DNA of 64,000 nucleotides from an uncultured Hellea sp. GTDB lineage: Bacteria > Pseudomonadota > Alphaproteobacteria > Caulobacterales > Maricaulaceae. The translations under genes and the position numbers were made by a program. Of this stretch, positions 5,721 through 29,131 are shown piece by piece. The notes beneath the pieces are model-generated. The model did not search any database, was not told the DNA's origin, and saw nothing but the letters and a program-made list of their open reading frames with translations. The first letter of the stretch is position 1, and each line of letters starts with the position of its first letter. The stretch spans positions 248,001 through 312,000 of the forward strand of contig CALLMD010000010.1 of the NCBI GenBank assembly GCA_938007935.1, read 5' to 3'.

Positions 5721-5730
5721 GGTCGTTTTT

Positions 5731-6951
5731 CTATTGGGCTAAAGTGATATCAACAGAATTGGTTCGACTCCAAATCCGCTGACTATATTGGCCTGGCTTG
5801 GCAACTAATCTTATACTTTGAGCACCACAATTTTGATAAGGAACTTGAAAGACAGCCTGACCTCCAGAATTCTCCTTAGCAGCATCATCAAGATTTACAC
5901 CTGAAATTACTATGTCGCTCGGTATGCAGGTCAAGACCCAAAAAAACATACCTTGACGTTGACGATAAGACCAATTGGCATCAATTTCCAGATTGTAAAC
6001 TTGCCCAGGGTTCAATTTTAATAATTGTTCTGTCAAAACACTGACAGCATTGCCTCCGTAAGAGGCATAAAGGCCTCCGCCTTGATCTAATTCTGAGAAG
6101 TATTTTGGCTTATTAATATCACTCCAATTAAACGGTGCAAGTTCATCTCGCTTCTCAAATTTGGGGTTAAAAACGGTGAATTGTTGAGTCTGGATGGAAT
6201 CTTTATGTAAAATCTTCCAGTATTCAAAAGCAGAATCAATTTTTTGCATACGCTGTAAAGCTTTGAGGTAAGAAGTATGTAGATCCCGATCATTTTTTGC
6301 ATCACTTGAGTCCTGCGTGAAAATTTCAAGTGAATGACGAATGTCTAAATAGTTTTGCTCAGTCATCAGGCCAATGCGGTTCGTTAAATATTTTTTTCCC
6401 CAAACTGGTTTATTGAATAGATATCGATCTATTACGCCTTGAGCTTCCTTATCCTCGCTCAGAAATAACAGGGTATTATGATAATCATCTATTTGGTCTT
6501 TTCTTCCGTTAAGTCGGAGTAATACATCTAAGTTCTGCATCGCGGCAGTATAATTTTTCTGTGATACTTCAATATTTACCAAAGCGCGTAACGCACGTCG
6601 GTCTCTACGATTGCGTTCAAGTGTTTTTTCAAACAATCTCCGACTTTCAGACGTCTCATCAAGAAATAAATTAGCTATACCGGTTTGTACGAAGGGGCGA
6701 TAAGATAAAGGTGCACGTTGTAAGCCTTTCAATGCATTGACTTGAACTTCAAGCGCATCCTGCCTTGTCATTTTTGATCTGAGTAATCTCTCGTTACTAT
6801 TAAGTAGAACTTTTGAGTAATTTGGGAACCACCGTTGGGCATCATTCATATCATGGCCAATAGCCATACGTCCTAGACAGACGGTTGATATAATAAACAT
6901 ACCCAAAAAAATGGGAAGCCAAATTATAAAAATTTTAAAAGCCGAACTCAT
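5731..6951 (-). CDS. Hypothetical protein, N-terminal TM helix plus TPR-like repeats, C-terminal beta-rich domain (EPS cluster)
   Basis: ORF with TM near the N-terminus, helical repeats, and 4-bp overlap with the upstream Wzc-like gene, so probably translationally coupled. Confidence 0.7.
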   Translation of the reverse strand: MSSAFKIFIIWLPIFLGMFIISTVCLGRMAIGHDMNDAQRWFPNYSKVLLNSNERLLRSKMTRQDALEVQVNALKGLQRAPLSYRPFVQTGIANLFLDETSESRRLFEKTLERNRRDRRALRALVNIEVSQKNYTAAMQNLDVLLRLNGRKDQIDDYHNTLLFLSEDKEAQGVIDRYLFNKPVWGKKYLTNRIGLMTEQNYLDIRHSLEIFTQDSSDAKNDRDLHTSYLKALQRMQKIDSAFEYWKILHKDSIQTQQFTVFNPKFEKRDELAPFNWSDINKPKYFSELDQGGGLYASYGGNAVSVLTEQLLKLNPGQVYNLEIDANWSYRQRQGMFFWVLTCIPSDIVISGVNLDDAAKENSGGQAVFQVPYQNCGAQSIRLVAKPGQYSQRIWSRTNSVDITLAQ

Positions 6952-9212
6952 CTTTTTGACATGATGTCCATATAATCTTTAACAATTGAATTGGAGCTTT
7001 TCTTCTGACTGGCCGAAGAGTAATTCGTTGCAGCATCGCCATAACTATACTGATAATAATTGTAATACCCTTTAGATTGTTGTGTATACTTTGTAATAAC
7101 AATACCGAGCACCTTAATTCCGCTAACCAATAGTCTATCAATCGTCGCTTTTACCGCAGGTGTACGTGTTGACGCGCCTTCAACAACTAAGAGAGAGGCA
7201 TCGCAATTTGATGCCAAAATTGGCGCATCAGCCAAGCCCATAACTGGGGGCGAATCTACGATAACATAAGAATATTTATCTCTGACATGATCCAGAATTT
7301 CCCCAAGACGATAGGTCGATAAAATTTCAGAAGGATTTGGAACATTGGCACCGCTTGGTAATAAATATAAATTATCGTGAGCTGTTAGCAAAATGTTATC
7401 ATCGATATTCTCTCTGGAGGTTAACAATCCAGATAAGCCAATACTCTGTTGAACCCCATGTTTAAATGTCGGCAAGCGCATATCTGCATCAATGAGTAAA
7501 ACCTTGTCTCCTAATCCCGCATACCTTAAAGCCAATCCTAAAGAGGAAACAGATTTTCCTTCACCACTGCGCGTGCTAGTAATATGGATAACACGCGGGC
7601 CACCATCGGGGCCTGAGAATTGCAAATTCGTTCGTAGGGAAGCATAAGCCTCAGCCACAGCGCTTGAAGGATTACTCAAGACCTCAGTAATACGTCGCAA
7701 TCCTTTTGCGTCCTCTGTATCTCGATTAAGGCTCTTACCTGTCTTTAAAATATTTTTAGCAACTGGTATGACCCCCATAACAACGCCGCCAAGCTTGTTC
7801 TTGACATCATCTGGAGACTTAATTCTGTCATCAATATATTCGAGGGCGAAGACTAAAACAGTTCCAAGTAACGACCCGAGAAATCCAGCGATTAAAAGTG
7901 ATAATAGAACACGTGGTTTAAATGGAATTTGCGGCGTTTCTGCCGCGTCAACTAATGAAATCAAATTAGACCCAATGTCATCCGCGATACTAACCTCTTT
8001 TAAACGCTGAAGTAATGCGTCATACTGGGAACGGTTCGTTTCCACTTCCCGTTTGAGTATATTATATTCAACGCTTTTATCTCGAATATCTCCAAATGAG
8101 TTTTTAAGAGCTAAAAATCTATTTTGTAAATTCTGCTCACTTCCTAGGGCAACATCATACTCAGCCTTAAGCGCTGAAAGCCCTTGACCTTGAAGAAAAT
8201 CGGTTTCTGCTTCAATTTGTTCCGCAATATAATCAATGCGTGATTGCAATTCTACCATCACTGGAAATTCTGGGACATAAATCGCGCTCTTTTCAATGTA
8301 TTCAGCTGTTAAATCTGTATGTGTTCTCCTCAAATCCGCCAAAACACGCCCTTCCGAAGCAGAAACTGGGCTATCTTGATTTTTTGCAATATTATACTTT
8401 TGCTCCAGTTCAATGCGTTTTGTTCGGGCGTTTAATAATTCACTATTCAGCGCAACAAGAGATTCTGATGCGAGAAATCCTGGAGAAACATTTCCTTGAG
8501 TATCTTGTACAGTTACCAAATCATTAGTAGCCGCATATTCCACCAATTCACGCTCTGACTTTTCAAGTATCTCTTTTGTACTTCTGAGACGATCTTCGAT
8601 AAAATCTCGCGCGTAAGATGTCGCATTATATTTTCTTTCGAGATTATAAGTAACAAAAGACTCTGTTACTGCATTTGCAATATCACGTGCTTTTCTAGGG
8701 TTAGTATGTTCAAAGCTAACCTTGATTAGGCGACTTCTGCCTACAGCGACAACGTTTAACTTCGTTGCGAAAGCACTTATAGCCATGTTTCGTTTTTCAA
8801 CGCGGGTACCCTCTATAGTCGTAAATTCTGGATCGGCCGTTAAGTTAAACTGATCGATAATATCCCCAGCCAAAGTGTCACTACGAAGAAGTTCAATTTG
8901 AGTGTTAAAAAATTCACTATCAACGACGAAATTTTCAACTTCAGAATCTTGATTGAAAATCTGACGTTCCTGCTGTTTAACTTCAATTATACTCGATGCC
9001 ATGTAGACAGGGGTTGCTTGCGATACCACATAAAAAGTGACAAGTAGTGATACCAAAGTTATCAATGCTATGACCCACCACCAACGGCTCAAAACACGGA
9101 ATAAGTCCCAAATATTAAACCCTGCAAAGTTAGAATCCGCTGGACCTGTATAGCCAACACTCTGCGGAGCATTACCCGTACGATATTCACCGTCCATTTC
9201 TTGAATTCTCAT
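6948..9212 (-). CDS. Polysaccharide biosynthesis tyrosine autokinase (Wzc/ExoP-like)
   Basis: Wzz domain, Walker A 'STRSGEGKSVSSLG', Walker A' 'VLLIDADMR', 'YVIVDSPPVMGLAD', C-terminal Tyr cluster 'GYYNYYQYSYGDAATNY'. Confidence 0.92.
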   Translation of the reverse strand: MRIQEMDGEYRTGNAPQSVGYTGPADSNFAGFNIWDLFRVLSRWWWVIALITLVSLLVTFYVVSQATPVYMASSIIEVKQQERQIFNQDSEVENFVVDSEFFNTQIELLRSDTLAGDIIDQFNLTADPEFTTIEGTRVEKRNMAISAFATKLNVVAVGRSRLIKVSFEHTNPRKARDIANAVTESFVTYNLERKYNATSYARDFIEDRLRSTKEILEKSERELVEYAATNDLVTVQDTQGNVSPGFLASESLVALNSELLNARTKRIELEQKYNIAKNQDSPVSASEGRVLADLRRTHTDLTAEYIEKSAIYVPEFPVMVELQSRIDYIAEQIEAETDFLQGQGLSALKAEYDVALGSEQNLQNRFLALKNSFGDIRDKSVEYNILKREVETNRSQYDALLQRLKEVSIADDIGSNLISLVDAAETPQIPFKPRVLLSLLIAGFLGSLLGTVLVFALEYIDDRIKSPDDVKNKLGGVVMGVIPVAKNILKTGKSLNRDTEDAKGLRRITEVLSNPSSAVAEAYASLRTNLQFSGPDGGPRVIHITSTRSGEGKSVSSLGLALRYAGLGDKVLLIDADMRLPTFKHGVQQSIGLSGLLTSRENIDDNILLTAHDNLYLLPSGANVPNPSEILSTYRLGEILDHVRDKYSYVIVDSPPVMGLADAPILASNCDASLLVVEGASTRTPAVKATIDRLLVSGIKVLGIVITKYTQQSKGYYNYYQYSYGDAATNYSSASQKKSSNSIVKDYMDIMSKR

Positions 9213-9398
9213 AATCGTACCTATAAATACCCCGTAAACAGCTAACTACACCTTTCAAACAAATATTACCAATATGAAAATACAGAAAATGGAAGAATTT
9301 TACTGTTCCACGCACTAGTATTATGGCTATGGTTTTGTTACTGAATTTGCCACTTAGACTAAAACTATTATTTAGCCGCGGGCTACAGGTGATTTAGA

Positions 9399-10178
9399 AT
9401 GATTTTTTTTACAAAAACTCCGTTTACTTTACAAAAATCACGATTTGTCAAAGGCTTGGTTCCGGCCATTCAGCTTTTAGCATTTAGCTCAGTTTTACTA
9501 GCAGGTTGCAGTTCAACTGGATTATCATCAAAGACGCCTGAAATACCTGCGTCACAAACCTTTAATGCTTTGCAATATGACACACAAAACGCTGCTAGTG
9601 CTTTCACATCTAAGCTAGAAGACGATGTTTTTAGACAGGGTGATACAGTTACGGTAACCGTGAATGGGTTTGAAGAATTTTCCGGAATTTATAGTATAGA
9701 CAAATCAGGAGAAATTTTCTTAGGCCACATCGGCAAATTGAAAGCAGCGGGGTTAACCATTCCAGAACTCCAGACTAAAATACATCAAAATTATAGTTCT
9801 TGCTGCCTTGTAAAGCCAAATGTATCTATTGAGAGAGAAAAGCAGGCATTTGGGAAAATCGTCGTTGATGGCGCAGTTAACAAGGCGGGCGTCTTCGATG
9901 TTGAAAATGTTATTAAATTATCGGAAGCCGTCGCATTAGCTGGTGGAATTTCCGAAACAGCAAATCCAGAGATGACAATATTATCAAGAGAGATAAATGG
10001 AGAGAGAAGAATTGCCTCTGTCAACTTGACTGAAATTCAACAATTTGGCGGTAACGACCCCCTTATATATCCAACTGATGTTGTATATGTGCAGGATAGC
10101 AAGGGCAGATTACTCTATAAGGACTTCGTCAAAACTTTACCCCTCATAAGCGCCGTAATTCTAGCGACCACAAGGTAA
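9399..10178 (+). CDS. Polysaccharide export outer-membrane lipoprotein (Wza-like)
   Basis: Lipobox 'LLAGCSS', then Poly_export/SLBB-like 'FRQGDTVTVTVNGFEEFSGIYSIDKSGEIFLGHIGKLKAAGLTIPELQ'. Confidence 0.9.
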   Translation: MIFFTKTPFTLQKSRFVKGLVPAIQLLAFSSVLLAGCSSTGLSSKTPEIPASQTFNALQYDTQNAASAFTSKLEDDVFRQGDTVTVTVNGFEEFSGIYSIDKSGEIFLGHIGKLKAAGLTIPELQTKIHQNYSSCCLVKPNVSIEREKQAFGKIVVDGAVNKAGVFDVENVIKLSEAVALAGGISETANPEMTILSREINGERRIASVNLTEIQQFGGNDPLIYPTDVVYVQDSKGRLLYKDFVKTLPLISAVILATTR

Positions 10179-10298
10179 TTTTTAAATTAGCTTACGCGCA
10201 ATCGGTATTTCGCTTCTAAAATTGATGATGATTATCCGCAAAGATTGTCATATCACAACATATCTTATCTTTAAACTTGGCTGAAATATTTGAAAAAA

Positions 10299-11579
10299 CT
10301 AAGCCCTAATTTGTGGGCGGCGACTAGGCATTCGATAATTAATTCCGATAATAGGCCATATTATTAAGATAAATAACAAGGTTTCACTTAAGAGTTGAAA
10401 ACAAAAAGCGCCAAATGATGAATTTAAGAATAGTACTATTTTAGCCAACACCATCACAGAATAGACCTTTACAACAAATGTGGCTTTATTCTCGAATAAC
10501 CGTCGCTCAAAAAACAAAAACAGATAAATTAGGCCTCCAAAGAAGAAAGCGCCGCCAATTACACCAAAAGATAATAAAGCTTCTAGATAACCGCCGGGAG
10601 TCACACCCGTTTCAAAATGAATATTATAAGCTTCACGGCTTAGAATTTTACCTAAATCTTTATAAAACAGAACATCATTATTAAAGAACGGTTCGAATAA
10701 AAATGAAATTGATACAGGGCCCACCCAATTTACTTCTGTAGACCAAAGATAGCCAACCCCAAGTTTAGTAAAATCTAGGAAAAAGCGACTCTCTAGAACC
10801 TTTAAAATTCCTCCGCCCGCGGCTTCTAAGAGATTTGAATATTCTTTATTTGTCCGCAAAACTGTAATTATCAAAAGAAGTATAACCATTGCAACCGCAA
10901 TGGTCATTATCCGTCTAAAATTCAGCTTCCTAAGCAAAATTTGAAAATAAATAATCTCAAGAACGAAAACGAAAAGTAAAGCTCGATGAGAAATAAATGT
11001 CATCGTTAAAACAAAAATCAGGGCTGGAATAATAAAGCATAACCAAGCAAAAATACCCCTTGTCTGAACGGCCCTCACATAGGCTAACGCAATTATAATA
11101 TGGTTGAACATTGAAAGTCGGAGGATCATGTATAATGAAATACTATCAGAGAAACTTCGTTTTCCTGATAAGTCTAAGTCATCTAAATAGACGACATCAG
11201 CAGTTAGCTGACTAATCATATAAAGGCTAACGCCAGACAATATTAAAGCAATAATACTGATGAATATGGGTATTCTAGGGATAGACAAATTAATAGAATT
11301 ATATTTACCTCCCTTGAACAAAAAGGAGGTGATTAAAATAACGACGAAAGCACACAAAAGTAGCATGGCGCCTGCGAATATTACTGTTTCAGAATTAAAG
11401 TCGGAAAAGAAACTTATATAGGCTTTTCTATTAAGATTTGGATTGGCCTGTGTACTCAATACATATGGAAGCCTGACAAAAAGCTCGAATATAAAAAGTA
11501 AGAAGAGAAATATTAAAATCGGGGATCTAACTTGACTTATTCTATTCATCTTAATCTCAAACTGGTTACGAACAAGCAC
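10299..11579 (-). CDS. Polytopic membrane protein, candidate oligosaccharide repeat-unit polymerase (Wzy-like)
   Basis: Multiple hydrophobic segments, position in the EPS cluster, and overlap with the Wzx-like ORF upstream. Confidence 0.6.
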   Translation of the reverse strand: MLVRNQFEIKMNRISQVRSPILIFLFLLFIFELFVRLPYVLSTQANPNLNRKAYISFFSDFNSETVIFAGAMLLLCAFVVILITSFLFKGGKYNSINLSIPRIPIFISIIALILSGVSLYMISQLTADVVYLDDLDLSGKRSFSDSISLYMILRLSMFNHIIIALAYVRAVQTRGIFAWLCFIIPALIFVLTMTFISHRALLFVFVLEIIYFQILLRKLNFRRIMTIAVAMVILLLIITVLRTNKEYSNLLEAAGGGILKVLESRFFLDFTKLGVGYLWSTEVNWVGPVSISFLFEPFFNNDVLFYKDLGKILSREAYNIHFETGVTPGGYLEALLSFGVIGGAFFFGGLIYLFLFFERRLFENKATFVVKVYSVMVLAKIVLFLNSSFGAFCFQLLSETLLFILIIWPIIGINYRMPSRRPQIRA

Positions 11580-12697
11580 AAACTCACTACAAAGAAGACA
11601 AGAGATGCGATCAAATAATGATTATACATAATCTGAATATTATGTGCGAACATGAATATAGTTGATAACACAGCAACCAGCAAACATACAAGTTTCACAA
11701 TAGTCGCCCCCCTCATGTGGGACTGCCCCTTGACTGAATAAACAATTAGGTTGCCCAAACGTTCTAATATGAGTGCCAAAATTAAAATTATGGCCGGGCT
11801 TCGTGACATGCCCGCAGCATCCGGAAATATTAAAGGTACATAATTCCATAAACAGCCCAAGAGAGTAGCATAAAGCAATGCAGGAATTACAAAGAGTGTC
11901 GCGGATAAAACAATCATTTTTGTTCTATTATCATCGCTATTACCCCGAAATATTTGCAGGGCATTCCCCCGAAAAATCATGGCAAAAAGCATAGATATAG
12001 GCGGTAAGATGAGTGTAATATATATACCCGATTGAACGATTAGACTCTTTTGATCGGCAAATGAAAATATATATCGATCCCATTGAAAAAATAGGCTCGA
12101 AATAATTATAAAAGCAAACATTAGCATTGGATTAAAACTATCGCGCGCCTTCTTTAATGCAGAAATATTTAAAGACTTCTTCTTTAGACATGCATAACTC
12201 ACCCAGACAAGCCCTAGTAAGCTACACGCATTTATAAAAAACAGCCGCGATGGCTCTAGATCTTCTTTTAATAAATACACTAATGCAACTCTAACAAAGG
12301 CCGGAGTGAGAGGAATAAGAATTACCAATGCACGCTGGATATTGAATTGAGCCTCAGCCAGCATCACGCTGGCTCGAACTGTTATTGGCACGGATAACGC
12401 ATAGAATAATGTTGAAATGAAAGGACCGTCACCACGTAATAATAAGAAAAGTATCGAAAATGTTATAATAATTATTATATCTACTCTTAGAGAATTTCCA
12501 CTTTCCCCCGTTCGGTAATTTCTCAAAATATTGAGCTGCGCTAATGCTGTTATCATGGGAAAAAACAGCGACTGAAATAAAAAAAATTCAGATTGTAGGT
12601 CTAAACCATTGCTATTCACAATCAGAACAATAACGAGAAAAGATGCTAAAAAATTTGATCCTACAAATATGCCTGAAATCAGCATTCGGGATAACAT
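11546..12697 (-). CDS. Polytopic membrane protein, candidate Wzx-like flippase (MOP superfamily)
   Basis: Many TM segments and cluster context; a weak call from hydropathy pattern only. Confidence 0.5.
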   Translation of the reverse strand: MLSRMLISGIFVGSNFLASFLVIVLIVNSNGLDLQSEFFLFQSLFFPMITALAQLNILRNYRTGESGNSLRVDIIIIITFSILFLLLRGDGPFISTLFYALSVPITVRASVMLAEAQFNIQRALVILIPLTPAFVRVALVYLLKEDLEPSRLFFINACSLLGLVWVSYACLKKKSLNISALKKARDSFNPMLMFAFIIISSLFFQWDRYIFSFADQKSLIVQSGIYITLILPPISMLFAMIFRGNALQIFRGNSDDNRTKMIVLSATLFVIPALLYATLLGCLWNYVPLIFPDAAGMSRSPAIILILALILERLGNLIVYSVKGQSHMRGATIVKLVCLLVAVLSTIFMFAHNIQIMYNHYLIASLVFFVVSLCLFVTSLRLR

Positions 12698-17359: not shown

Positions 17360-18502
17360 TTAATCACGAATATCCAGGCCGTGCCATCTTGCGCTAAGCC
17401 CTGCTGTTCCCAAAATAAGGCGGACAACCCGCTGGGATGTATTTGTGATTTGATAATCAGCAGGTACATCAGCAATCACGCCGCCATCATAACTCGTTAT
17501 CGCTTCTTTTACGCCAAGTGAAATTGTTCGCGCCTTTAGGCCTGTGATAATTATCGCGCCTGTATCCATGGCTTCAGGCCTCTCCAACGCATTACGAATG
17601 GTTACAGCAGGAAATCCAAGCATTGAACTTTCCTCGGAAATAGTACCTGAATCAGAAATAACGCAGCGCGCTTCCGTTTGAAGTTTATTATAATCGTGAA
17701 AGCCAAAGGGCTTAAGAAAGCGCATAGATTTTGGAATGTCTATTTTGAATTCTTCTAATTTTTTTCGAGTCCGAGGATGTGTTGAGACAATTGTTTCAAT
17801 TCCGTATTCTTCAGATAGGCTTTTTATTGCAGTCACGATTTCAGCAAGATTATCTGGATTATCTACATTTTCTTCACGGTGAAACGAAGCCAGAAAATAC
17901 TCATTCTTTTTCAAGGATAGTTTTGAGAGAATATCGCTTTTATCAATATCAGGCTTATAACGGTTAAGGACTTCCCGCATAGGCGAACCCGTTACATAGA
18001 TACGGCGATGCGGCAAACCTTCTGATAAAAGATGACGCCTTGCATGTTCAGTATAGCAAAGGTTAAAGTCTGATATATGATCCACAAGCCGGCGGTTTAA
18101 TTCCTCTGGTACATTAAAATCAAAACATCTGTTCCCTGCTTCCATGTGATAGACAGGAACTTTATTTTTACGTGCCGGCAAAGCCGCAATGCATGAATTG
18201 GTATCGCCAAGCAATAAAAGCGCTTCAGGCTTTTCTTTGCGAATGACCTTATCAACTTCGATGATAACAGTGCCAATTGTTTCAGACGCCGTTGATCCTG
18301 CCGCATTTAAAAAATAATCTGGTTTTCCAAGACCTAAATCTTCAAAAAAGACTTCATTTAATTCATAATCGTAATTCTGACCTGTGTGAACAATCACAGT
18401 CTCAGCAACCTCACGCAAAGCGTGAATTGTGCAAGCCTGACGAATCCATTCTGGGCGCGTCCCTGCAACCACCATAACTTTTAACTTGTTAAAGGTACTC
18501 AT
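17360..18502 (-). CDS. Non-hydrolysing UDP-N-acetylglucosamine 2-epimerase (FnlC/Cap5G-like)
   Basis: 'VVAGTRPEWIRQ', 'HTGQNYD', 'HMEAGNRCFD', 'SFHREENVDNPDNL', 'SDSGTISEESSMLGFPAVTIRN.LERPE'. Confidence 0.9.
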   Translation of the reverse strand: MSTFNKLKVMVVAGTRPEWIRQACTIHALREVAETVIVHTGQNYDYELNEVFFEDLGLGKPDYFLNAAGSTASETIGTVIIEVDKVIRKEKPEALLLLGDTNSCIAALPARKNKVPVYHMEAGNRCFDFNVPEELNRRLVDHISDFNLCYTEHARRHLLSEGLPHRRIYVTGSPMREVLNRYKPDIDKSDILSKLSLKKNEYFLASFHREENVDNPDNLAEIVTAIKSLSEEYGIETIVSTHPRTRKKLEEFKIDIPKSMRFLKPFGFHDYNKLQTEARCVISDSGTISEESSMLGFPAVTIRNALERPEAMDTGAIIITGLKARTISLGVKEAITSYDGGVIADVPADYQITNTSQRVVRLILGTAGLSARWHGLDIRD

Positions 18503-19617
18503 ACGGCCTCGCTATATGTGTCAGTATTCTTCGGATCAAAAAAGTCATGACTCCAAAAAAGTGTCAAAAGCTCAGTGCTTCCCGTGTTTTTTATATTATG
18601 AGTGTGAAGGGGAGGCATATCGATAATACAAGGCTCATCTCCCTTAACATGATACTCCATAACTTTATCACTAAATATATTTCGAACACGAATAAGCGCT
18701 TCACCTGAGACAACAATGAAACGTTCAATTTTATCAAAATGGAAATGATCACCGCGAACTACGCCTGGAACTGTTGTCGAAAAAGATGTTTGACCTGGGT
18801 TTTCGGCTCTAACACATTCAAAGAATGATCCGCGCGCATCAGCATGGCGAACTAAAGGCATTGGGAAATGCGCCTCAAACATACGAGAGCGTAAGCTATT
18901 AAAAAGCCTCAAATCAAAAGGGTCACGAATATCTGGTAATATTGACTTGGAATAAAGGTCGTAAAAACTCTGCAACTTATCCGCCACGGTCTGCACGCTG
19001 GACTCAGCGCCCTCAACGCGTATCTCACCCTCTGACTCATTACGAATGACGTCTGCTACTAAGTCCGCTACCTGGTTGTAGTGAAGCAAAGTAACCTTTG
19101 AATCATTGTGAATTGTAAGCGGCTTTCCCTCAACAATTTGATCACAAAATGTGCCAATAAAATTATTATAATACGGCCTAGAAAGATCTCCAAAAAGATT
19201 CGGAAGAACCAAGCTAGCAAACAGATTACAATTTGATTTAGCAAACTCCTCTAGACGCTCACCAACTTTACGCTTCACCTGACCATAAATTGACTCATTG
19301 TCGATTTGAATTGTCGAAGCATAAATTATATGAGGTTTTTTTGAGATTGATTTACACGCCTCAATCATTTTTTCAGCAATCTCCAAATTTCCTGCTTCAA
19401 CGTCTTCATCATTCCCGCGGTTTACACCTGCAAGATGTAAGACAATATCGGCATCCTTTACAGACTGCTCAAGTGCAACTGGATCGTTAAAGATGTCACG
19501 ATTAATCGCAATAACCTCATAGCCATGATGATACTTCAAACGCGCATGACTATGCTGGCCGAGCTGGCCTGCCGCACCTGTAATCGCGATTTTTCTAGGA
19601 GTATCTGATGTTCTCAT
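18499..19617 (-). CDS. UDP-2-acetamido-2,6-dideoxy-hexulose reductase (FnlB/Cap5F/WbjC-like) with C-terminal cupin
   Basis: N-terminal Rossmann 'ITGAAGQLGQH' and cupin 'GVVRGDHFHFDKIERFIVVSGEA...PLHTHNIKNTG'. Confidence 0.88.
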   Translation of the reverse strand: MRTSDTPRKIAITGAAGQLGQHSHARLKYHHGYEVIAINRDIFNDPVALEQSVKDADIVLHLAGVNRGNDEDVEAGNLEIAEKMIEACKSISKKPHIIYASTIQIDNESIYGQVKRKVGERLEEFAKSNCNLFASLVLPNLFGDLSRPYYNNFIGTFCDQIVEGKPLTIHNDSKVTLLHYNQVADLVADVIRNESEGEIRVEGAESSVQTVADKLQSFYDLYSKSILPDIRDPFDLRLFNSLRSRMFEAHFPMPLVRHADARGSFFECVRAENPGQTSFSTTVPGVVRGDHFHFDKIERFIVVSGEALIRVRNIFSDKVMEYHVKGDEPCIIDMPPLHTHNIKNTGSTELLTLFWSHDFFDPKNTDTYSEAV

Positions 19618-19661
19618 TTGATTAAACTATTGCCTAAAAGCCTAGCTTTCCACCAACGCCT

Positions 19662-20693
19662 TTATTTGTTTTTCCATAATTCTAATTCTGCCTGTACTTG
19701 AGGCAGAGAGAGTAGAAGGGTTTTGACACCGTTTATATCCAACCGTTCTGTATTGTGAGAATGGTAATCCTCATACGTCACAGCTTTAGTATCCCCTTCA
19801 CTAAAATAGGACTTATAATTTAGGTCCCGATGATCAAGACGAATCCTGAAATAGTCACCCATATCTTCTGAATTTGAAAGTTCTTGCGAGCTTGCAAGAG
19901 TCTCATATAATTTTTCGGCATGTCGCCATCCAATAATTTCGGTGGGATGATCAGGAACATCAAATAAGGATTTAATAGCTTCAACTAAATCTAGTATTGT
20001 CGAAGCGGCGGCTTTTTTAATAAACAAATCGCCCTGATTAGCATGCTCAAATGCATATTGTACCAAGGCCACTGAATCGCGTAATGGCATGAGAAACCGA
20101 GTCATTGTTGGTTCAGTTATGGTGATCGGCTGTCCGGTTTTTATTTGCTTAATAAATAATGGGATTACAGAACCACGGGAATACATCACATTACCATAGC
20201 GTACGCAAGAAATAGTCGTTTTTGCGTCACGACCTAAATCTCTCGCCGCAGCTTGTGCAACCTTCTCCATCATAGCCTTTGAAATTCCCATCGCATTTAC
20301 AGGAAAAACGGCCTTGTCGGTTGAGAGGCAGACCAAACTTTTCACAGAGTTTGATACGGCCGATCTGACCACGTTTTCAGATCCTATAATATTCGTCCTA
20401 ACAGCTTCTAGTGGAAAAAACTCACAGGATGGCACCTGTTTAAGCGCTGCCGCATGGAAGACACATTCCACGCCTGCCATTGCTCTATCAACACTCTGGA
20501 GATCACGTATATCTCCGATGTAATATCTGACTCTATCGTCTCGAAGCTCATTTCGTAACGCGTCTTGTTTCTCTTCATCACGGCTTAAAATTCGAAGTTC
20601 AGGCACACCTGCTTCAAGCAGTTTACGCAGCATTGTTTTACCGAAAGACCCCGTCCCTCCAGTAATTAATACAGATTTTGTTTTTGATCCCAT
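19662..20693 (-). CDS. UDP-GlcNAc 4,6-dehydratase/5-epimerase (FnlA/Cap5E/WbjB-like)
   Basis: 'LITGGTGSFGKTMLRKLLE', 'AALKQVPSCEFFPLEAVRTN', 'STDKAVFPVNAMGISKAMMEKV', 'RYGNVMYSRGSVIPLF'. Confidence 0.92.
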   Translation of the reverse strand: MGSKTKSVLITGGTGSFGKTMLRKLLEAGVPELRILSRDEEKQDALRNELRDDRVRYYIGDIRDLQSVDRAMAGVECVFHAAALKQVPSCEFFPLEAVRTNIIGSENVVRSAVSNSVKSLVCLSTDKAVFPVNAMGISKAMMEKVAQAAARDLGRDAKTTISCVRYGNVMYSRGSVIPLFIKQIKTGQPITITEPTMTRFLMPLRDSVALVQYAFEHANQGDLFIKKAAASTILDLVEAIKSLFDVPDHPTEIIGWRHAEKLYETLASSQELSNSEDMGDYFRIRLDHRDLNYKSYFSEGDTKAVTYEDYHSHNTERLDINGVKTLLLSLPQVQAELELWKNK

Positions 20694-20850
20694 AACCCTA
20701 TGACTTACTTATATTGCTTAAGCGTCTAAAAAGAATTTTCCGCTTGAAATATGGCCCCTTTAATTCAGCGGCCTTATAGGGATGGGGGTCAAAGATTGTC
20801 AACCGAACATACCATCATAGACTCATTCACTTTTGGAAGCCAAAAAGTAA

Positions 20851-21915
20851 TTATCGCGTGGAAATTCTACCATTGGAAAGTTTTTCAATAAACTCTCCAC
20901 TGTGAGGATAAGCAGCTAGCGCGCTTTCAAGATGAACTGTGTCTTCAGCTGTCAAAATTGACGAGATGTTCAGAGCTCTTTCGACTTGCGCTGGTTTACT
21001 CCCAAGAACCATAGGATGAAGGGTTTGGAATATTTTTGATAATGTCGATTTTTTATTCTTTTTTTGAGTAAATACAGGCGCAGAATTTTGATATGTTTCG
21101 TGAAAAGCCTCTATTCCATTTTGAGCCATCAACCAACTTGTGACGAGATATATATGATAGTCATCTATTTGTGCCGCGCTTTTCAAGTTATTATCTTTTG
21201 GGAGGTTAATATCTATGGAATCACGCCCAGTCCGGCAATATTCAATCCATATTTTCGGGGCTTGATGGCCGAGAAACGAAAAACAAAGGCAAACTTCAGA
21301 TAGTAAATCATGATCACTATCTAAATAGGCCAACATGCCGATATGAGTAAGTGAATCGAATATGTCTTCGCTAAAGTAATGCTCTTCTTTGCCAAAATTA
21401 GTCGCATAAAATATCAAATGCGTGAATTCATAGAAAAGTGGGCGATTAAATTTTAGGAACCTTTCTGAGCGCTCTAGAAAACCAGAAATACGTTTATCTA
21501 AAGAGGCGCGATCATCCGTTTCATAGCTAGGAACCCTGCCTCTACGCGATAGGAGATTGATAATTTCCATGCGGCGTGTATCGGATGTATCATAGGCATA
21601 AAGATCATTTTGGAGCACGAAATCAATCAAAACCTCACCTTTGCGCCCGTGCATTCCAAGGTCTTCTAAATCTAGCGCAATTGCTAAGAAAAACCTGAAA
21701 AAGGGCGGGTAAAGTTCACAAAATTTATCAATTTTAGAATACAGCTCTTCGTATAAAGCCAAAGAGCTTGAACTCAAAGTCAGTTCTGAGTTAAGGGCAA
21801 TAGAGAGAAGCTCCCCATTCTCTTTTAAAAACGATATGTTGAGGCCTTTATTGCGATTAGATGCAAAAGCCCTGACACAATCGTACGGTAAGTATTGAAT
21901 GGGGAGATTCATCAT
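20851..21915 (-). CDS. Uncharacterised helical protein with 'EFTHLIFYATNFG' motif
   Basis: 354-aa ORF starting 1 nt after the stop of the upstream secreted peptide ORF; no recognised catalytic motif. Confidence 0.7.
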   Translation of the reverse strand: MMNLPIQYLPYDCVRAFASNRNKGLNISFLKENGELLSIALNSELTLSSSSLALYEELYSKIDKFCELYPPFFRFFLAIALDLEDLGMHGRKGEVLIDFVLQNDLYAYDTSDTRRMEIINLLSRRGRVPSYETDDRASLDKRISGFLERSERFLKFNRPLFYEFTHLIFYATNFGKEEHYFSEDIFDSLTHIGMLAYLDSDHDLLSEVCLCFSFLGHQAPKIWIEYCRTGRDSIDINLPKDNNLKSAAQIDDYHIYLVTSWLMAQNGIEAFHETYQNSAPVFTQKKNKKSTLSKIFQTLHPMVLGSKPAQVERALNISSILTAEDTVHLESALAAYPHSGEFIEKLSNGRISTR

Positions 21916-21916
21916 C

Positions 21917-22192
21917 CTAGTAGTCTGTTACCCAGCGTACAGAAGGAACTTCTGCACCACCCTTACCGGTATATAAATCGCATTGCTCTAAACTGCTTAA
22001 ATGTGCCTTTGAGCTTGCAACATAATCACCTTGGTAAAAATCACTTGCTTCAGCAAAAGCGAATTCCATTGGGGCTTTCATCTCAGCAGATGGAGTCATT
22101 ACCTGCGTGTTTAGCGTAGCCTGGTCGGCAGACGCGCCGGTAGAGAGGCCAAGAGCAAGTGCTACGGCCGTTGTTATCATTAATGGTTTCAT
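21917..22192 (-). CDS. Small secreted protein (91 aa) with N-terminal signal peptide
   Basis: Signal sequence 'MKPLMITTAVALALGLSTGASA'; SD-like aggaaag upstream of ATG; 3' end abuts the next ORF. Confidence 0.75.
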   Translation of the reverse strand: MKPLMITTAVALALGLSTGASADQATLNTQVMTPSAEMKAPMEFAFAEASDFYQGDYVASSKAHLSSLEQCDLYTGKGGAEVPSVRWVTDY

Positions 22193-22278
22193 GTTTCTTT
22201 CCTTTCATGTGGAATCACACAAAAGCAGAAATACAACTTAAAGTAAAGATAAAATTATCAATAATCGTAAAAGTTGTC

Positions 22279-23895
22279 TTAATACACCATTAGCGCCGCC
22301 GATATTGCTGGTTCAAACCCCATATTTTCAATAAATGCCTGTCTCTCCGGCAATTCAAGTAAGTTAAAGTCAATTAAATTATTAGTCGTACGGTCAGTCC
22401 AATCAGCATTATTATATTTCAATGCACAGGCATGAACGATTAAATTAGAGACTTTTGAATGCTCAGAATATGCATTTAAACAATTTTTCCAACCCAGAGA
22501 ACTATTCTCAGATAAGAGAGCAAATGCAGCCTCGACTTGATAGACGGAATTATCTTGATCCGACATAAGCCGTTTAACTTTACCCATCACGTCAATGGCC
22601 TTCTCCCATTCCCCAAGCATAAATCCTGAATATCTTGCAATATCTAGTAAAACGAGAGGATGAGATGTGTATGTTTTTTCTGCACGCAGCAAAGTTTCTT
22701 TAATTTGCTGAACATTGTAATCTTTTCGGACAGAATCATACATGATTTTCGCTGCTGTCGTTTCAGGACTTTGCTGCCAATTCTCTCCGATATCATTAAG
22801 AATCATTTCTGCCTGCTTAAAAGCATCTTCGCTGTCAGCAACACGGTTTCCCTGTACTTGCTCTAAATAGCTAGCCGCAAGCGCGCCCAAATTTTCAAGT
22901 GATGAACTTCCTTTTGCATGGGCCGTTTTCAAACACTCAAACGCTTCATAATAATCCTCGTCCGTATCGGAGGCAAAAGAGTCATACATTTTAACTAAAC
23001 AGCTATAATCTTCCAAATGAGCATGATTATTCCAGCTTTGGCTCACAGCATCACGATGAACCACACCGCTTGGCTGCAGAAGGTCATTCGTGATTCTCGC
23101 AAGCGTATAATAAAGCTCACCATCTTTTGCTATCGCCGACGGCGCACTTCCTGATAAATCGCCTATACCCACGATCTTACCACTCGCCTGCGATGTGATT
23201 GAAAGACTACCTTGGAAGCCTTCATCGCGTTCAAAAAGAGCATAAGTCAGTTTATATCCAGGCACTTGGGAAGTGCCACAGGCCTCGACATTTCTAACAC
23301 TATTGAAATGTTTAAATTGCGATGCTGCGCCCGACACAACTTGATGAACATATTGAGATAAATCAGTGTCATCTGCTGGCGCGGCTATTTCCAAATTTGG
23401 CATTACTATAGAGCAATCTTCGCCTTTGTTTTTGGTTGTTATCGCGCCAGTAAAAATGAAAATTATGGCAGCAATGCTAGCCATGAGTGCGCCGCCTAAT
23501 AAGCGATTTTTACCGCGCCCCGTATTAGCGATAGTATCGACTAATTCATGAGGCTTATTTGACCGGGCTTCAGCAATTTTCAGCAAATAGCTAGATTTTG
23601 GGAGCTCTATTTTTAGCGGCTCTGATTGCTCGTTAAAACTCTCAAGATTTGCGCGAAGCCGATGCATTTCAACTCGCACAATACTGTCCTTCTTGGTATT
23701 GAAATCACCATTCCTACCAAAGACTTTTGCAGCAATATCCTTTGTAGTGATGTCAGGCCTAGTCTCATCAAAGCTGTAATCTAAAAGATATTTGAAAAGC
23801 GCAGATTGATTTTTTGACGAGCCAAGAACGCCGCTTTCAATCACAGCCTCCCATATATCGGATTTTGAAATCCCGACTTCGTTTTTATAAGTCAT
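22279..23895 (-). CDS. Membrane-anchored winged-helix regulator with periplasmic TPR-like domain (CadC/ToxR-type topology)
   Basis: N-terminal 'SALFKYLLDYSF...KDIAAKVFGRNGDFNTKKDSIVRVEMHRLRANL' HTH-like; TM 'LLGGALMASIAAIIFIFTGAI'; long C-terminal helical domain. Confidence 0.7.
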   Translation of the reverse strand: MTYKNEVGISKSDIWEAVIESGVLGSSKNQSALFKYLLDYSFDETRPDITTKDIAAKVFGRNGDFNTKKDSIVRVEMHRLRANLESFNEQSEPLKIELPKSSYLLKIAEARSNKPHELVDTIANTGRGKNRLLGGALMASIAAIIFIFTGAITTKNKGEDCSIVMPNLEIAAPADDTDLSQYVHQVVSGAASQFKHFNSVRNVEACGTSQVPGYKLTYALFERDEGFQGSLSITSQASGKIVGIGDLSGSAPSAIAKDGELYYTLARITNDLLQPSGVVHRDAVSQSWNNHAHLEDYSCLVKMYDSFASDTDEDYYEAFECLKTAHAKGSSSLENLGALAASYLEQVQGNRVADSEDAFKQAEMILNDIGENWQQSPETTAAKIMYDSVRKDYNVQQIKETLLRAEKTYTSHPLVLLDIARYSGFMLGEWEKAIDVMGKVKRLMSDQDNSVYQVEAAFALLSENSSLGWKNCLNAYSEHSKVSNLIVHACALKYNNADWTDRTTNNLIDFNLLELPERQAFIENMGFEPAISAALMVY

Positions 23896-23993
23896 TAATC
23901 ATCCCATGAACCCATTTTGTGGTTCAAAGATTACTTTAGACGCAGATTTTACATTCCACAAATTATTTAGCCATTCGCCAGAATATTAAAACT

Positions 23994-24536
23994 TTAAACG
24001 CCCAAAAGCGGGTAACTCGCCTCGATTTGGTAAAAATTAGGTCCCTTAGTTTTTTTATGACTAGAAAAAAGAAAGAACTCATCAACCAAAAACGGCTTAC
24101 AATTAAAGTTTGCCCGCCGCTTTTCAAAATCAATAATCCGATTTATCGGAGCATTACGTCTTAGATAAGCTAGCGTGACATGCGGCTTGTAATTTCGGGC
24201 CTCAACATCAATGCCGGCGCGCCTCGCCGCATGCTTTGCATATTGATGTAATTTCAATAAATCAGCAGACTCGTTAACGCCCAGCCAAATTGCATGAGGT
24301 TCAGATTTTCCAAAATGCCCGGCCCCGCCAAGGGAGAGTTTAAAACTTGAAAATGGCTTTCGCGCCAGTTCCATATCCAAGACTTCCGCTAAGTCATTCC
24401 CTACCTCTCCATAATAAGCGAGCGTGATATGCAGCTTATCTGGATCAGACCACCGTGCGCCAGAGACACCTTTTTGTATCCTCTCGATTTGCGCAGTCAA
24501 ATGAGGCGGAATTTTTATGGCTGTAAATAGCTTCAT
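23994..24536 (-). CDS. thpR: RNA 2',3'-cyclic phosphodiesterase (LigT/ThpR family)
   Basis: Two HxT motifs ('KLHITLAYYG', 'KPHVTLAYLR'). ORF track start 24656 is too far upstream; 'MKLFTAIKIPP' at 24536 is the likely start. Confidence 0.85.
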   Translation of the reverse strand: MKLFTAIKIPPHLTAQIERIQKGVSGARWSDPDKLHITLAYYGEVGNDLAEVLDMELARKPFSSFKLSLGGAGHFGKSEPHAIWLGVNESADLLKLHQYAKHAARRAGIDVEARNYKPHVTLAYLRRNAPINRIIDFEKRRANFNCKPFLVDEFFLFSSHKKTKGPNFYQIEASYPLLGV

Positions 24537-24567
24537 GGAGACTAGCCTTATGCACAAGCACAAAGAT

Positions 24568-25611
24568 TTAGCGCCCCGCAGGGCAGCGATAAGTTTTATG
24601 TATCCGGTGCGCTTCTTTTTCCATCTCTTTTGTCCATGAGATGTCATGCGCGTCAATATTCTCGGTGAGCTGGTCCATTGTGGTTGCGCCTATAATGCTT
24701 GACGTCACAAACTCACGGCTCTCCGCAAATTTGAGCGCAAATTGCGTTGGTGTTATCCCAAGTGCCTTGGCTGTTTTATTACAGTCCAGCCAGGCTTCTT
24801 TGGAATCCCAATAAGCCCCCATAAAGCTCTCAAACAAAGCCCCACGCGAACCTTTAGGTGAGGTTCCAGCATCGTATTTGCCTGTCAAAAACCCCATCGC
24901 CAGAGGTGAGTAAGCCAAGAGGCCAACTTGTTCGCGCATAGCAATTTCCGCGAGGTCATAATCGAAACGCCGCGCAATAAGACTATAAACACATTGGTTA
25001 GAAACAATACGCGGCCAATTATTTTTCGTAGCAAGTTCCAAATACTTCATTGTGGCCCAGCCAAACTCATTGGAGACCCCGATATGGCGAATATTTCCTT
25101 TTTCAACATGACGGTTCAGGGCGCCAAGAATATCCTCAAATGGTACCATGTCATTCGCATTATAATCTTGATAGCTATGAAAGCCGAAAGGCGGGATTGC
25201 ACGATCTGGCCAATGCAATTGATAGAGATCTATATAATCAGTATTTAGACGCTTAAGCGATTTTACTATGGCTTCATCAATTTGCGCGGGGGTATGACGC
25301 GTCATCTCAGCATTATCGCGGCACCACGCCATACCTGAACGGCCTGTTAACTTGGTCGCGAGCACATATTTATCACGGTTTTTCCGTGCTTTTATCCAAT
25401 TGCCAATATAGCTTTCTGTCCGCCCCTGTGTTTCGGCTTTACCCGGGATCGGATACATTTCCGCTGTATCAATGAAATTAATCCCGCGGCCAATGGCATA
25501 ATCGAGCTGTTCATGAGCCTCGACTTCTGTATTTTGCTGCCCCCAAGTCATCGTCCCAAGGCAAATTGACGTCACTTTAATACCTGTACGCCCGAGATTT
25601 CGAAGTTCCAT
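24568..25611 (-). CDS. Aldo/keto reductase, Tas-like
   Basis: 'RNLGRTGIKVTSICLGTMTWGQQNTEVEAHEQLDYA...DTAEMYPIP..ETQGRTESYIGNW' closely resembles Tas. Confidence 0.9.
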   Translation of the reverse strand: MELRNLGRTGIKVTSICLGTMTWGQQNTEVEAHEQLDYAIGRGINFIDTAEMYPIPGKAETQGRTESYIGNWIKARKNRDKYVLATKLTGRSGMAWCRDNAEMTRHTPAQIDEAIVKSLKRLNTDYIDLYQLHWPDRAIPPFGFHSYQDYNANDMVPFEDILGALNRHVEKGNIRHIGVSNEFGWATMKYLELATKNNWPRIVSNQCVYSLIARRFDYDLAEIAMREQVGLLAYSPLAMGFLTGKYDAGTSPKGSRGALFESFMGAYWDSKEAWLDCNKTAKALGITPTQFALKFAESREFVTSSIIGATTMDQLTENIDAHDISWTKEMEKEAHRIHKTYRCPAGR

Positions 25612-25717
25612 TTCTTAAGTCCTTATCAATTATTTTAACCCTATGCGGGTAACCCTTGGAATTTGCCGTTAAATGGCTTATATAGAGTGCAGTGGTCCTG
25701 AAAAGGATTTTTGATTT

Positions 25718-26455
25718 ATGGAGCGTTTTATGAACGAGAACCTTAACCGTACAATTGGCGCAAGCCAGGAAACCGATCTCGGTCTCCGTAATTTTATGCT
25801 GGGCACCTACCGATATATGGCCGCTGCCATGGCAGTAACAGCCGGTGTTGCCTATTTTGGCGGTCAAGCCATACAGGCGAACCCGCAACTTATGGGCTTA
25901 TTACGTAGTCCCTTCCTCCTTTTAGGCTTCGTTATCGCCATTCCAGTGCTCTTTGGCGCCGTTGGCCGTAAATTGCCAACAATGTCCTTGGGCGGCGTTC
26001 TGACCTTCCTCTTCGGCTTTGCCGCCTTTATGGGCGTCTTTATGTCAGCCGTCTCTGTATTCGTACCCGGTATGGTCATTGCAAAAATATTCTTTATGAC
26101 CGTCGCTATGTTTGGCGCGCTTAGCCTCTTTGGTTACTCGACAAATCGTAACCTAAGTACTTTCGTAAAATATGCTTTCGCAGCCTTCCTTGGCTATGTC
26201 GTCATTAGTGTCTTAGGCATGTTCTTCCCGGCTCTTCGTCCGACGGGACCCCTAGACATTATCATTAATGTCATCGCCCTAGGCGCGATTGCGATGATCA
26301 CAGCTTGGGAAACACAAATGCTAAAGCGTGTATATTATGGTAGCGCTGGCAATCCAGCCATGATGAAGAAAATGTCCGCTTACGGCGCAGCATCACTTCT
26401 CTTAGCTTTTGTCAATATGTTTCAAATTCTTATGAGCCTTTTCGGCAGAGAATAG
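25718..26455 (+). CDS. Bax inhibitor-1/YccA family membrane protein
   Basis: Seven-TM pattern with 'NFMLGTYRYMAAAMAVTAGVAYFGG' and C-terminal 'ASLLLAFVNMFQILMSLFG'. Confidence 0.9.
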   Translation: MERFMNENLNRTIGASQETDLGLRNFMLGTYRYMAAAMAVTAGVAYFGGQAIQANPQLMGLLRSPFLLLGFVIAIPVLFGAVGRKLPTMSLGGVLTFLFGFAAFMGVFMSAVSVFVPGMVIAKIFFMTVAMFGALSLFGYSTNRNLSTFVKYAFAAFLGYVVISVLGMFFPALRPTGPLDIIINVIALGAIAMITAWETQMLKRVYYGSAGNPAMMKKMSAYGAASLLLAFVNMFQILMSLFGRE

Positions 26456-26476
26456 AACTTCATAAATATGAATCAG

Positions 26477-26503
26477 AAACCCGCCTTAATGGCGGGTTTT
26501 TTT
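26477..26503 (+). terminator. Rho-independent terminator (probably bidirectional) after the Bax-inhibitor gene
   Basis: AAACCCGCC-TTAAT-GGCGGGTTT followed by TTTT. Confidence 0.85.
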
Positions 26504-26514
26504 ATGCGGGCTAG

Positions 26515-26874
26515 CTAACGGCTAATTTTAAAGCGTTGCTTATCAAAGACCCGCAAAACACTTTTTAAATCATGTCCACGTTTCAAGATTAAACCGCCGG
26601 GAGCCACAACTGAAAACTGACCTTGCTTACTACGCAGGCCTGGCACTTTCTCAATTTTATAAAGCGGGTGCTCAGACGCCTTTCTATAAACAGAAAAAAC
26701 GGCCTTATCTTTGAGGAAGTCCATGGCGTAATCTTTCCAATCGCCATTGGAGACCATCTGGCCATAAACATTCAGAATAAGAGAGAGCTCTTGTCGATTA
26801 AAGGCGACCTGAGAAGGACGACCTTTTAACTCTGTTGGGCCGCGTGAAGGTAAATTGACAATATTTGACGCCAT
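26515..26874 (-). CDS. DUF2794-like protein
   Basis: 'FNRQELSLILNVYGQMVSNGDWKDYAMDFLKDKAVFSVYRKASEHPLYKIEKVPGLR' resembles this alphaproteobacterial family. Confidence 0.8.
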   Translation of the reverse strand: MASNIVNLPSRGPTELKGRPSQVAFNRQELSLILNVYGQMVSNGDWKDYAMDFLKDKAVFSVYRKASEHPLYKIEKVPGLRSKQGQFSVVAPGGLILKRGHDLKSVLRVFDKQRFKISR

Positions 26875-27132
26875 AAAGACAAACTTAACTCTAACGCATA
26901 ACCACGCAAGAAAATATTGTGGTTAACCGAAATTAAGACACCTCTCCAAAGTTTAAGGGTCTGCCTTATTTATGCCTTAATTCCGTCCCTTTTGAGACAC
27001 GATATTTCAACAGATTAAAGGTGTTAATCGATGGGGCGCAGAACACGGTTTTTTTACAGCCCCCCAGCCCCCGGGTTTTGATACTCATCGTTTAACACTT
27101 CCCACGATCCCCGTGGTTGTTATTGATAGCCA

Positions 27133-27174
27133 CGAGACGGCCCGCACTCTTCAGCCCAGTGTGGGCCTGTCTCG
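27133..27174. other. Strong stem-loop (16-bp stem, one bulge) in intergenic region
   Basis: CGAGAC-GGCCCGCACT-CTTCAGCCC-AGTGTGGGCC-T-GTCTCG; one G.U pair and one bulged T. Confidence 0.75.
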
Positions 27175-27199
27175 TTTACCACCTGCTATATGATGAAGG

Positions 27200-27916
27200 T
27201 TAAGGCGCGTAAGTCGCAGCCGTTGTAATTTTGGCTGATGTCGGGTCGTGAAACAAAGCCGCATAGGCCTTACCAACTTCCGTTTCAATGCCCGTATTTA
27301 AAACGGAACCGTTCCAATCAACGGGAATAACGTCGGTTACCACATTCGCAAGTTTCAATGTCCGGCCGCCATTTTCACCGCGTTTTACGTTCACAAGCTG
27401 CGTACCTGGCGTATAAGTAATTATAACGAGCTTAGCATTCTCTTCAGCTTCCGAGGTTATAACAAGCCTTCCACCAGACACCGTAATATCGGCTGCCGCT
27501 TTTGACTTAGGTAACGGCATTGTTTCAACATCTTTGCGGGTATAACGCGGGCTATGGGCAGACCCATTAAGGACGAGTTGCGGCGTGTAAATATTTGGAG
27601 TCCCCAAAGCCACGCCATATTCGCGCTGCCTTGCCGTAAATTTTGGGTCTCCAAACGTATCTTTCCAGCCCAAATAATCCCAATAGGTAACGCCATAAGT
27701 CAAAACCAATTTATTATCATCTTCGGCAAGCTTTGCGGCGAATTTATTCGCGGGCGGACAAGAGGAGCAGCCTTGTGATGTGAAAAGCTCGATCACCGAT
27801 GCGGCCTGGCGCGATTCATATGTCTCAGAGGCATTCACACTCACGCTCATAAATAGCGCAGATGTTATCAGAATAAGTTTTTTCATAGCGCCTCTTAACC
27901 GAGGAAGCTTGAACAC
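27200..27916 (-). CDS. DUF1223 family secreted thioredoxin-like protein
   Basis: 'VIELFTSQGCSSCPPANKFAAKLA' and signal peptide. Confidence 0.88.
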   Translation of the reverse strand: MFKLPRLRGAMKKLILITSALFMSVSVNASETYESRQAASVIELFTSQGCSSCPPANKFAAKLAEDDNKLVLTYGVTYWDYLGWKDTFGDPKFTARQREYGVALGTPNIYTPQLVLNGSAHSPRYTRKDVETMPLPKSKAAADITVSGGRLVITSEAEENAKLVIITYTPGTQLVNVKRGENGGRTLKLANVVTDVIPVDWNGSVLNTGIETEVGKAYAALFHDPTSAKITTAATYAP

Positions 27917-27955
27917 GCCATAAACGGACTCATCACAGTGCCGTGAGCCATGAAG

Positions 27956-29131
27956 CTACATGGACGGGGTTGCCGACTTGGCCTTCTTTTCATCAGGGTC
28001 AAGGTCCGGCTGCCCATCTGCGGAGAGTAAAACCGCAATCCACCTTGTTATCGGGAATTGCGCTAATATTATCATGATAATGACTGTCAGCGGCGCGGAG
28101 AGGAAAGCCCCGACCCCGCCCCAAAGTGCGTACCATAGAGTCAAAGACAGCACGACGACTAAGGCAGAAAGGTTCATGGAATCCCCCATCATTTTTGGCT
28201 GTATCGTATTGCCGATAATAAATTGGGCGCCGAATAATCCGCCAGCCAAAATTAAGATGGGCGTCATGGTTTCAAATTGCACAAGCCCGAAAATAAGAGG
28301 TAGAACGATTGCAGCTAGCCCCCCGACAATAGGAATGTAGTTGAGGATAAAAATGACCAAGGCCCAGAAAAGCGCATTTTCTAAACCAACGACAGCCATG
28401 ATGGCATAGGAGATAACCGTTTGCATCAGGCTGATAATGGTTTGAACACCGATATATTTTTCGATTGAGTGGCGAATGCGCACAAAGACTTTTGAGGCCT
28501 GAGCGCGCTTATTAATATCAGGAAAAAGATCATCCATTTTTTTCGGAAAGCTGGATTGCGCGGCGAAAAGAAATGCCACGTAAATTGCGATTGTCGCCAA
28601 GTTAGACAGCACGCCTTGTACCGAGCCCGCAAATCCGGCGAGGCCAGAAGTAACTTTATCTTCCAATTCCAATGAGGCGATAAAACTATCAATACTTAAA
28701 TCGCGCCCCAAGAGCCCCCCAACCCAATGGAAAATTTCATCAAGACGTTTCCCATATCGCGGGGCCTGATCCACAACGCTCCCTGCTGTATCGGCTATGA
28801 TTAAAATTATGCCGACAATTGAGGCCACCACCGTCAATATCGCTATGGTGAGGGCAAGCCAATAAGGCAGCTTTGATGACAATCCATCAAGCCAGCGCGC
28901 AAAGGCGTCAATGATAAGCCAGATAAAGACCGCCAAAGCGAAAGGCGTTATAAGGTCGCGCATAAAATAAAGGCTCGCGGTCCCCGCAATGAATGTCAGA
29001 ATTAAGAGGCATGAGCGAACTGTGTTATCCATAGCGGATTTATGGCCATAGCGTCCCTGCCCGTCAATATTGCATTCGCGCTCAAATGGCCATAACAAGA
29101 CGCAACTTTTGCCGAAATTAACAGGCAGCAA
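27956..29131 (-). CDS. AI-2E family transporter / PerM-like permease
   Basis: Polytopic; 'IGVQTIISLMQTVISYAIMAVVGLENALFWALVIFILNYIPIVGGLAA' is typical. True start is probably internal. Confidence 0.88.
   Translation of the reverse strand: MLPVNFGKSCVLLWPFERECNIDGQGRYGHKSAMDNTVRSCLLILTFIAGTASLYFMRDLITPFALAVFIWLIIDAFARWLDGLSSKLPYWLALTIAILTVVASIVGIILIIADTAGSVVDQAPRYGKRLDEIFHWVGGLLGRDLSIDSFIASLELEDKVTSGLAGFAGSVQGVLSNLATIAIYVAFLFAAQSSFPKKMDDLFPDINKRAQASKVFVRIRHSIEKYIGVQTIISLMQTVISYAIMAVVGLENALFWALVIFILNYIPIVGGLAAIVLPLIFGLVQFETMTPILILAGGLFGAQFIIGNTIQPKMMGDSMNLSALVVVLSLTLWYALWGGVGAFLSAPLTVIIMIILAQFPITRWIAVLLSADGQPDLDPDEKKAKSATPSM

Follow-up and report, generated by a model that had tools for sequence, protein, structure and literature searches.

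The window (the whole 64,000-nucleotide stretch of DNA analysed here) carries three tandem minus-strand open reading frames (ORFs) encoding proteins of 538, 91 and 354 amino acids, all at the positions and with the sequences predicted by a first-pass annotation made from the letters alone. Together with one intergenic feature they make up the following cassette:

22279..23895, minus strand: one-component membrane regulator, 538 aa (AF2 model, Foldseek, alignment)
22193..22278, minus strand: intergenic stretch, 86 nt, with a predicted RNA hairpin (fold z-score)
21917..22192, minus strand: putative precursor peptide, 91 aa, with a predicted Sec signal peptide and two motifs (alignment, Ka<Ks, co-occurrence)
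20851..21915, minus strand: DUF6902 protein, 354 aa, proposed peptide maturase (epimerase-like) (Pfam, invariant residues, AF2)

The ATG of the 354-aa gene lies 1 nt past the stop codon of the 91-aa gene, a gap that the first-pass annotation had pointed out and that recurs unchanged in the congener L017; the DUF6902 gene is probably translationally coupled to its small neighbour. Comparison of the 91-aa gene with its L017 homologue gave a Ka of 0.47 and a Ks of 1.58, and the corresponding small genes of the pair L015/L016 gave 0.46 and 1.28; because Ka is below Ks, the 91-aa ORF evolves like a coding gene. NCBIfam assigns no family to any of the three cassette proteins, a tblastn search of plasmids with the 91-aa and 354-aa proteins as queries returned no match, and no dedicated protease or exporter was seen near the cassette. 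Just downstream, at 17360-20693, lie genes for a Polysacc_synt_2 protein, an epimerase with Polysacc_synt_C, and a UDP-GlcNAc 2-epimerase, a sugar-nucleotide trio that perhaps belongs to a UDP-N-acetyl-L-fucosamine-type pathway and is absent from the other cassette loci.

Among 137 genomes from the GTDB family of the window organism, DUF6902 exceeds its family cut-off in eight, and in every one of these a protein of 83-94 aa with a hydrophobic N-terminus is encoded immediately upstream of it, preceded in turn by the regulator, so that the gene order regulator, peptide, DUF6902 is constant. A profile of the small proteins, run against the same 137 genomes, found full-length matches in exactly these eight, its remaining matches being weak, partial and limited to about the N-terminal half of the profile; if independence is assumed and shared ancestry ignored, the chance of two identical 8/137 sets is 1/C(137,8) = 4e-13. 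So tight an association greatly exceeds what chance would give. The contigs with matches carry the taxon names Hellea, Robiginitomaculum and Hyphomonadaceae, which makes the window organism a marine relative of these groups, and a ninth genome (G070) holds a weak DUF6902 relative below the cut-off that fits the related family DUF6895 better. Since the flanking genes differ between loci, except for the congeners (the window and L017) and a few weak matches, the trio remains linked while its surroundings vary. The cassette proposed in the first-pass annotation has thus held up at the level of sequence: its homologues do co-occur, its peptide is conserved, and no known unrelated function attaches to the family of its third protein.

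The 91-aa protein begins with a hydrophobic stretch ending ...GASA-DQ, with a 12-residue Kyte-Doolittle maximum of 2.13 (1.42-2.38 across the window-type peptides) and a predicted Sec signal peptide at about residues 1-22, a structure that suggests export by Sec. Alignment of its homologues, which the annotation had proposed, reveals two short conserved motifs after the signal peptide, FYxGD[FY] and LYxGxG. The same annotation had described a secreted peptide with a single Cys; the signal-type N-terminus and the lone Cys are both there, but that residue is Ser in the two nearest relatives. We therefore dropped the idea of a conserved Cys, and emphasis on it is unsupported. Upstream of the gene, in the intergenic stretch, a predicted hairpin (CUUUUGUGUG-auuc-CACAUGAAAGG) hides the Shine-Dalgarno sequence (fold z = -2.34). 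Hairpins covering this element are predicted at seven of the eight loci (the window and L015-L020, not L014; z from -1.0 to -3.7), differ in sequence between the seven, and might serve as a translational switch. Alignment of the loci showed no conserved operator between the regulator and peptide genes, and sigma-70-like promoters are hardly commoner than in shuffled sequence.

The 354-aa protein, which the first-pass annotation could not assign to an enzyme, proves to be a member of DUF6902 (Pfam PF21843; 5e-69, 233 bits against a cut-off of 27, spanning profile positions 24-348 of 351) with a further match to DUF6895 (PF21836, 1e-17); by Pfam the two families are sisters in one superfamily, if distant relatives. 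DUF6902 has no described function, and none of 5.39 million open-access papers mentions it. An AF2 model built from 22 homologues (pLDDT 89.7, pTM 0.91) is almost entirely helical and has no Foldseek match in the PDB with E<=0.001, and a PDB sequence search with profiles of this protein and the regulator gave nothing. Across an alignment of 22 DUF6902 and 11 DUF6895 proteins (window numbering), H166, G175, D203, E207 and H254 are invariant in all 33, and Y162 and Y253 nearly so. We regard H166, D203, E207 and H254, with Y162 and Y253, as candidate catalytic residues, a site read from conservation because the predicted fold has no significant match in the PDB. One homologue from the roseobacter family, L152, sits in the usual gene neighbourhood yet carries Q, L, R and T at positions 166, 203, 207 and 254, and no ORF resembling a precursor lies upstream of it: in this single case, loss of the candidate catalytic residues coincides with absence of the substrate gene. 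That joint loss, with the activity reported for a DUF6895 protein (PMC13352647, ref. 371, as cited there), argues against DUF6902 being a non-enzyme, such as a chaperone, receptor or immunity partner of the secreted small protein. We consider such a role improbable, even though no cofactor motif was recognised in the protein and the weak Foldseek matches of its all-helical model are to armadillo/HEAT-type peptide-binding folds.

A genome-wide scan with the 354-aa protein as single query found nothing, whereas an alignment-based scan yielded 286 relatives, of which we kept the best 80 (6 window-type and 74 roseobacter-type). Within these best 80 of 286, a small precursor-like gene lies directly upstream of DUF6902 in 80 of 80 loci, and in all 74 roseobacter loci that gene encodes tandem repeats. 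The regular expression G-[DE]-x-x-[EQ]-[ML]-F-[ST]-[ST]-x-x detects 2-11 repeats at a spacing of ~20 residues in 68 of the 74 (for example GDAVEMFSSGS), and variant repeats are visible by eye in the other six (L033, L035, L041, L042, L078 and L090). Repeats within one precursor usually end alike (FSSGS, FTSGL, FTTSC, FTSSM, FTSWS), while the endings differ between species; the putative cores are Ser/Thr-rich and some contain Cys. Judged by sequence, this is an architecture typical of multi-core RiPP precursors. A strongly hydrophobic N-terminal stretch is missing from most of the roseobacter precursors (Kyte-Doolittle median 0.25, maximum 1.42), and where these have clear repeated cores the window precursor shows only two degenerate motifs after its signal peptide. 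FYxGDF and LYxGxG resemble the roseobacter G-D-x repeats, a likeness that is statistically non-significant: the window peptide scored a combined p of 0.18 against the repeat profile, and an hhalign comparison of the window-type motif with the repeats (E = 0.058, probability 0.9%) is at most suggestive, so we claim no homology between them. DUF6902 occurs in 56 of 199 sampled roseobacter-family genomes (~28%), where, judged from sequence, a gene for an exonuclease-III-like protein recurs upstream of it and genes of housekeeping type recur downstream; no further recurring biosynthetic gene was found among the neighbours at these loci.

DUF6895 loci offer a parallel. In Actinomycetota, Bacillota and Pseudomonadota an ORF of 62-143 aa precedes the DUF6895 gene, lying directly or shortly upstream in Streptomyces, Kitasatospora, Pseudalkalibacillus, the alphaproteobacterium L150 and a more distant member of the Pseudomonadota, L151; several of these ORFs have a leader-like stretch in common (for example SGLLNPNLTTDQLL), and several end in a GPW[FY]-type sequence such as GPWFVLK, a related ending occurring twice in L151. 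In a Cupriavidus locus, L158, no convincing short precursor was seen. A precursor-like ORF lies directly upstream in most of the DUF6895 loci read. The peptide modification that the first-pass annotation had listed among its options is strongly supported by the loci of both families, in nearly all of which a DUF6902 or DUF6895 gene immediately follows a small gene of precursor type, and we think it very probable that the 91-aa protein and DUF6902 form a precursor/maturase pair. Two DUF6895 loci hold additional genes. The minus strand of L021 encodes, in tandem, a radical SAM/SPASM protein (10127-11638) that resembles RiPP maturases below NCBIfam cut-offs, a small protein with a TAT signal (9700-10101) and a DUF6895-like protein (8728-9693), a trio that is probably another RiPP operon combining two modification enzymes. 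In L150, a gene for a papain-like C70/C39-type peptidase (7770-8402), possibly the leader peptidase, lies ~1.1 kb upstream of the DUF6895 precursor gene.

What the modification might be is suggested by the same relatives. Lasso-peptide epimerase activity has been reported for a DUF6895 protein (Shi et al., ACS Catal 2026, as cited in ref. 371 of PMC13352647); in so far as that citation describes it, the enzyme belongs to the superfamily matched by the window protein. The two families have an identical invariant His/Asp/Glu/His/Tyr set, which, with the reported activity, favours a common chemistry, and we put epimerisation by DUF6902 at somewhat short of an even chance. Compared with the lasso system as cited, the window protein is DUF6902 and not DUF6895, its precursor differs in its motifs and in bearing a Sec signal, and neither a lasso B protease nor a C cyclase appears among the annotated neighbours of the cassette (window 17360-29131). 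DUF6902 might instead install something else in a RiPP operon of the same kind, for example a crosslink, an isoAsp isomerisation or a backbone cleavage. The distance between the two families and the difference in precursor motifs leave room for this, as do the conserved Gly-Asp/Glu of the precursor motif and the Ser/Thr-rich, occasionally Cys-containing cores of the roseobacters; set against the common residues and the DUF6895 report, we rate it as rather unlikely.

The third member of the cassette, described in the first-pass annotation as a membrane-tethered regulator with a winged-helix-like N-terminus, one transmembrane (TM) helix and a periplasmic helical domain, is well described by those words. 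The 538-aa protein has a winged-helix-like domain at ~10-110, read from predicted secondary structure as it has no match in Pfam, and a single TM helix at ~128-150; in an AF2 model (pLDDT 81.7, the linker containing the TM helix being poorly ordered) the periplasmic part comprises an alpha/beta subdomain and a TPR-like all-helical domain. Its best Foldseek matches are to the periplasmic domain of CadC (3ly9, E 5.8e-4; 3ly7, E 9e-4), with the TPRs of the Rap and NprR peptide-pheromone receptors at lower rank. Given the winged-helix-like N-terminus, the TM helix and these matches, a CadC-like membrane sensor is a fair description. Like CadC, a ToxR-like one-component regulator (3ly7), it would join a DNA-binding domain of the wHTH type through a TM helix to a periplasmic alpha/beta and helical domain; unlike CadC, it has no Pfam or NCBIfam match, has six Cys that are invariant among its homologues in the region after the TM helix, and has a peptide gene, not cadBA, as its genetic partner.

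All eight DUF6902 genomes encode a close homologue of the regulator, a further close homologue is an orphan (L137), and more distant relatives are found without the peptide/DUF6902 cassette; L143, for instance, has three near-tandem CadC-like TPR regulators of the same family (5325-10962) that adjoin neither a peptide nor a DUF6902 gene. The existence of such free-standing relatives, together with the absence of a CadC-like regulator from the recurrent neighbours of the roseobacter precursor/DUF6902 pairs, raises the possibility that the regulator is an independent CadC-like sensor of envelope or acid stress and that the functional unit consists of peptide and DUF6902 only. Yet the regulator adjoins the pair in 8/8 same-family loci whose flanks are unshared (except between the window and L017), its tree largely agrees with that of DUF6902, and the cassette-linked regulators cluster with the orphan, separately from those that are unlinked; we give independence about one chance in three. 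Sensing of the cassette peptide by the regulator is an equally tentative proposal. Of the two further options in the first-pass annotation, signalling keeps its anatomy, a sensor beside a secreted peptide, to which the CadC-like periplasmic domain and the constant gene order now add, with sensing of the peptide still conjectural; for an envelope-stress system we found no evidence at these loci.

Taking the three proteins together, we favour, as probable, a RiPP operon in which a CadC-like regulator governs a precursor exported by Sec and the DUF6902 maturase that modifies it. The 91-aa gene would encode the precursor, synthesised with its Sec signal peptide; cytoplasmic modification by DUF6902 would involve recognition of short G-x-G/G-D motifs, with L-to-D epimerisation by two histidines and Asp/Glu as the most likely chemistry; and the modified peptide would leave via Sec. 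The CadC-like regulator would control the operon, its TPR-like periplasmic domain being a natural site for sensing the product or an envelope signal. Parts of this scheme have precedents. MslH (PMC10406935) is a metal-dependent peptide epimerase using His/Asp pairs, as proposed here for DUF6902, though it has a calcineurin-like fold in contrast to the all-helical DUF6902 model, which lacks a PDB match. RiPP precursors with Sec signal peptides, which are called rare, exist in the bufferins and related peptides (PMC12452194); their modifying enzyme, MNIO/DUF692, is unrelated to DUF6902, and bufferins bind metal and are rich in Cys, in contrast to the window peptide with its one unconserved Cys.

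The most economical reading of the cassette is an undescribed RiPP class, here Sec-exported and regulator-linked. At its most ambitious, and this we hold to be speculative and on balance doubtful, the system could be a self-contained Gram-negative signalling circuit: a maturase whose fold is undescribed would produce a peptide bearing a D-amino acid, Sec would export it, and the CadC-like TPR regulator from the same operon would be its cognate periplasmic sensor. In roseobacters, maturases of this family would process tandem arrays of short, almost identical cores whose sequence changes from species to species (FSSGS, FTSGL, FTTSC and others). If the proposed operon is real, this marine RiPP class would be widespread, its enzyme might have a new fold, and its minimal pathway of two genes would be easily reconstituted; the variant with a Sec-routed precursor and its own membrane regulator would be a rare combination. 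The cores, mostly uniform within a precursor and varying between species, look like those of a diversifying signal or antagonism molecule.
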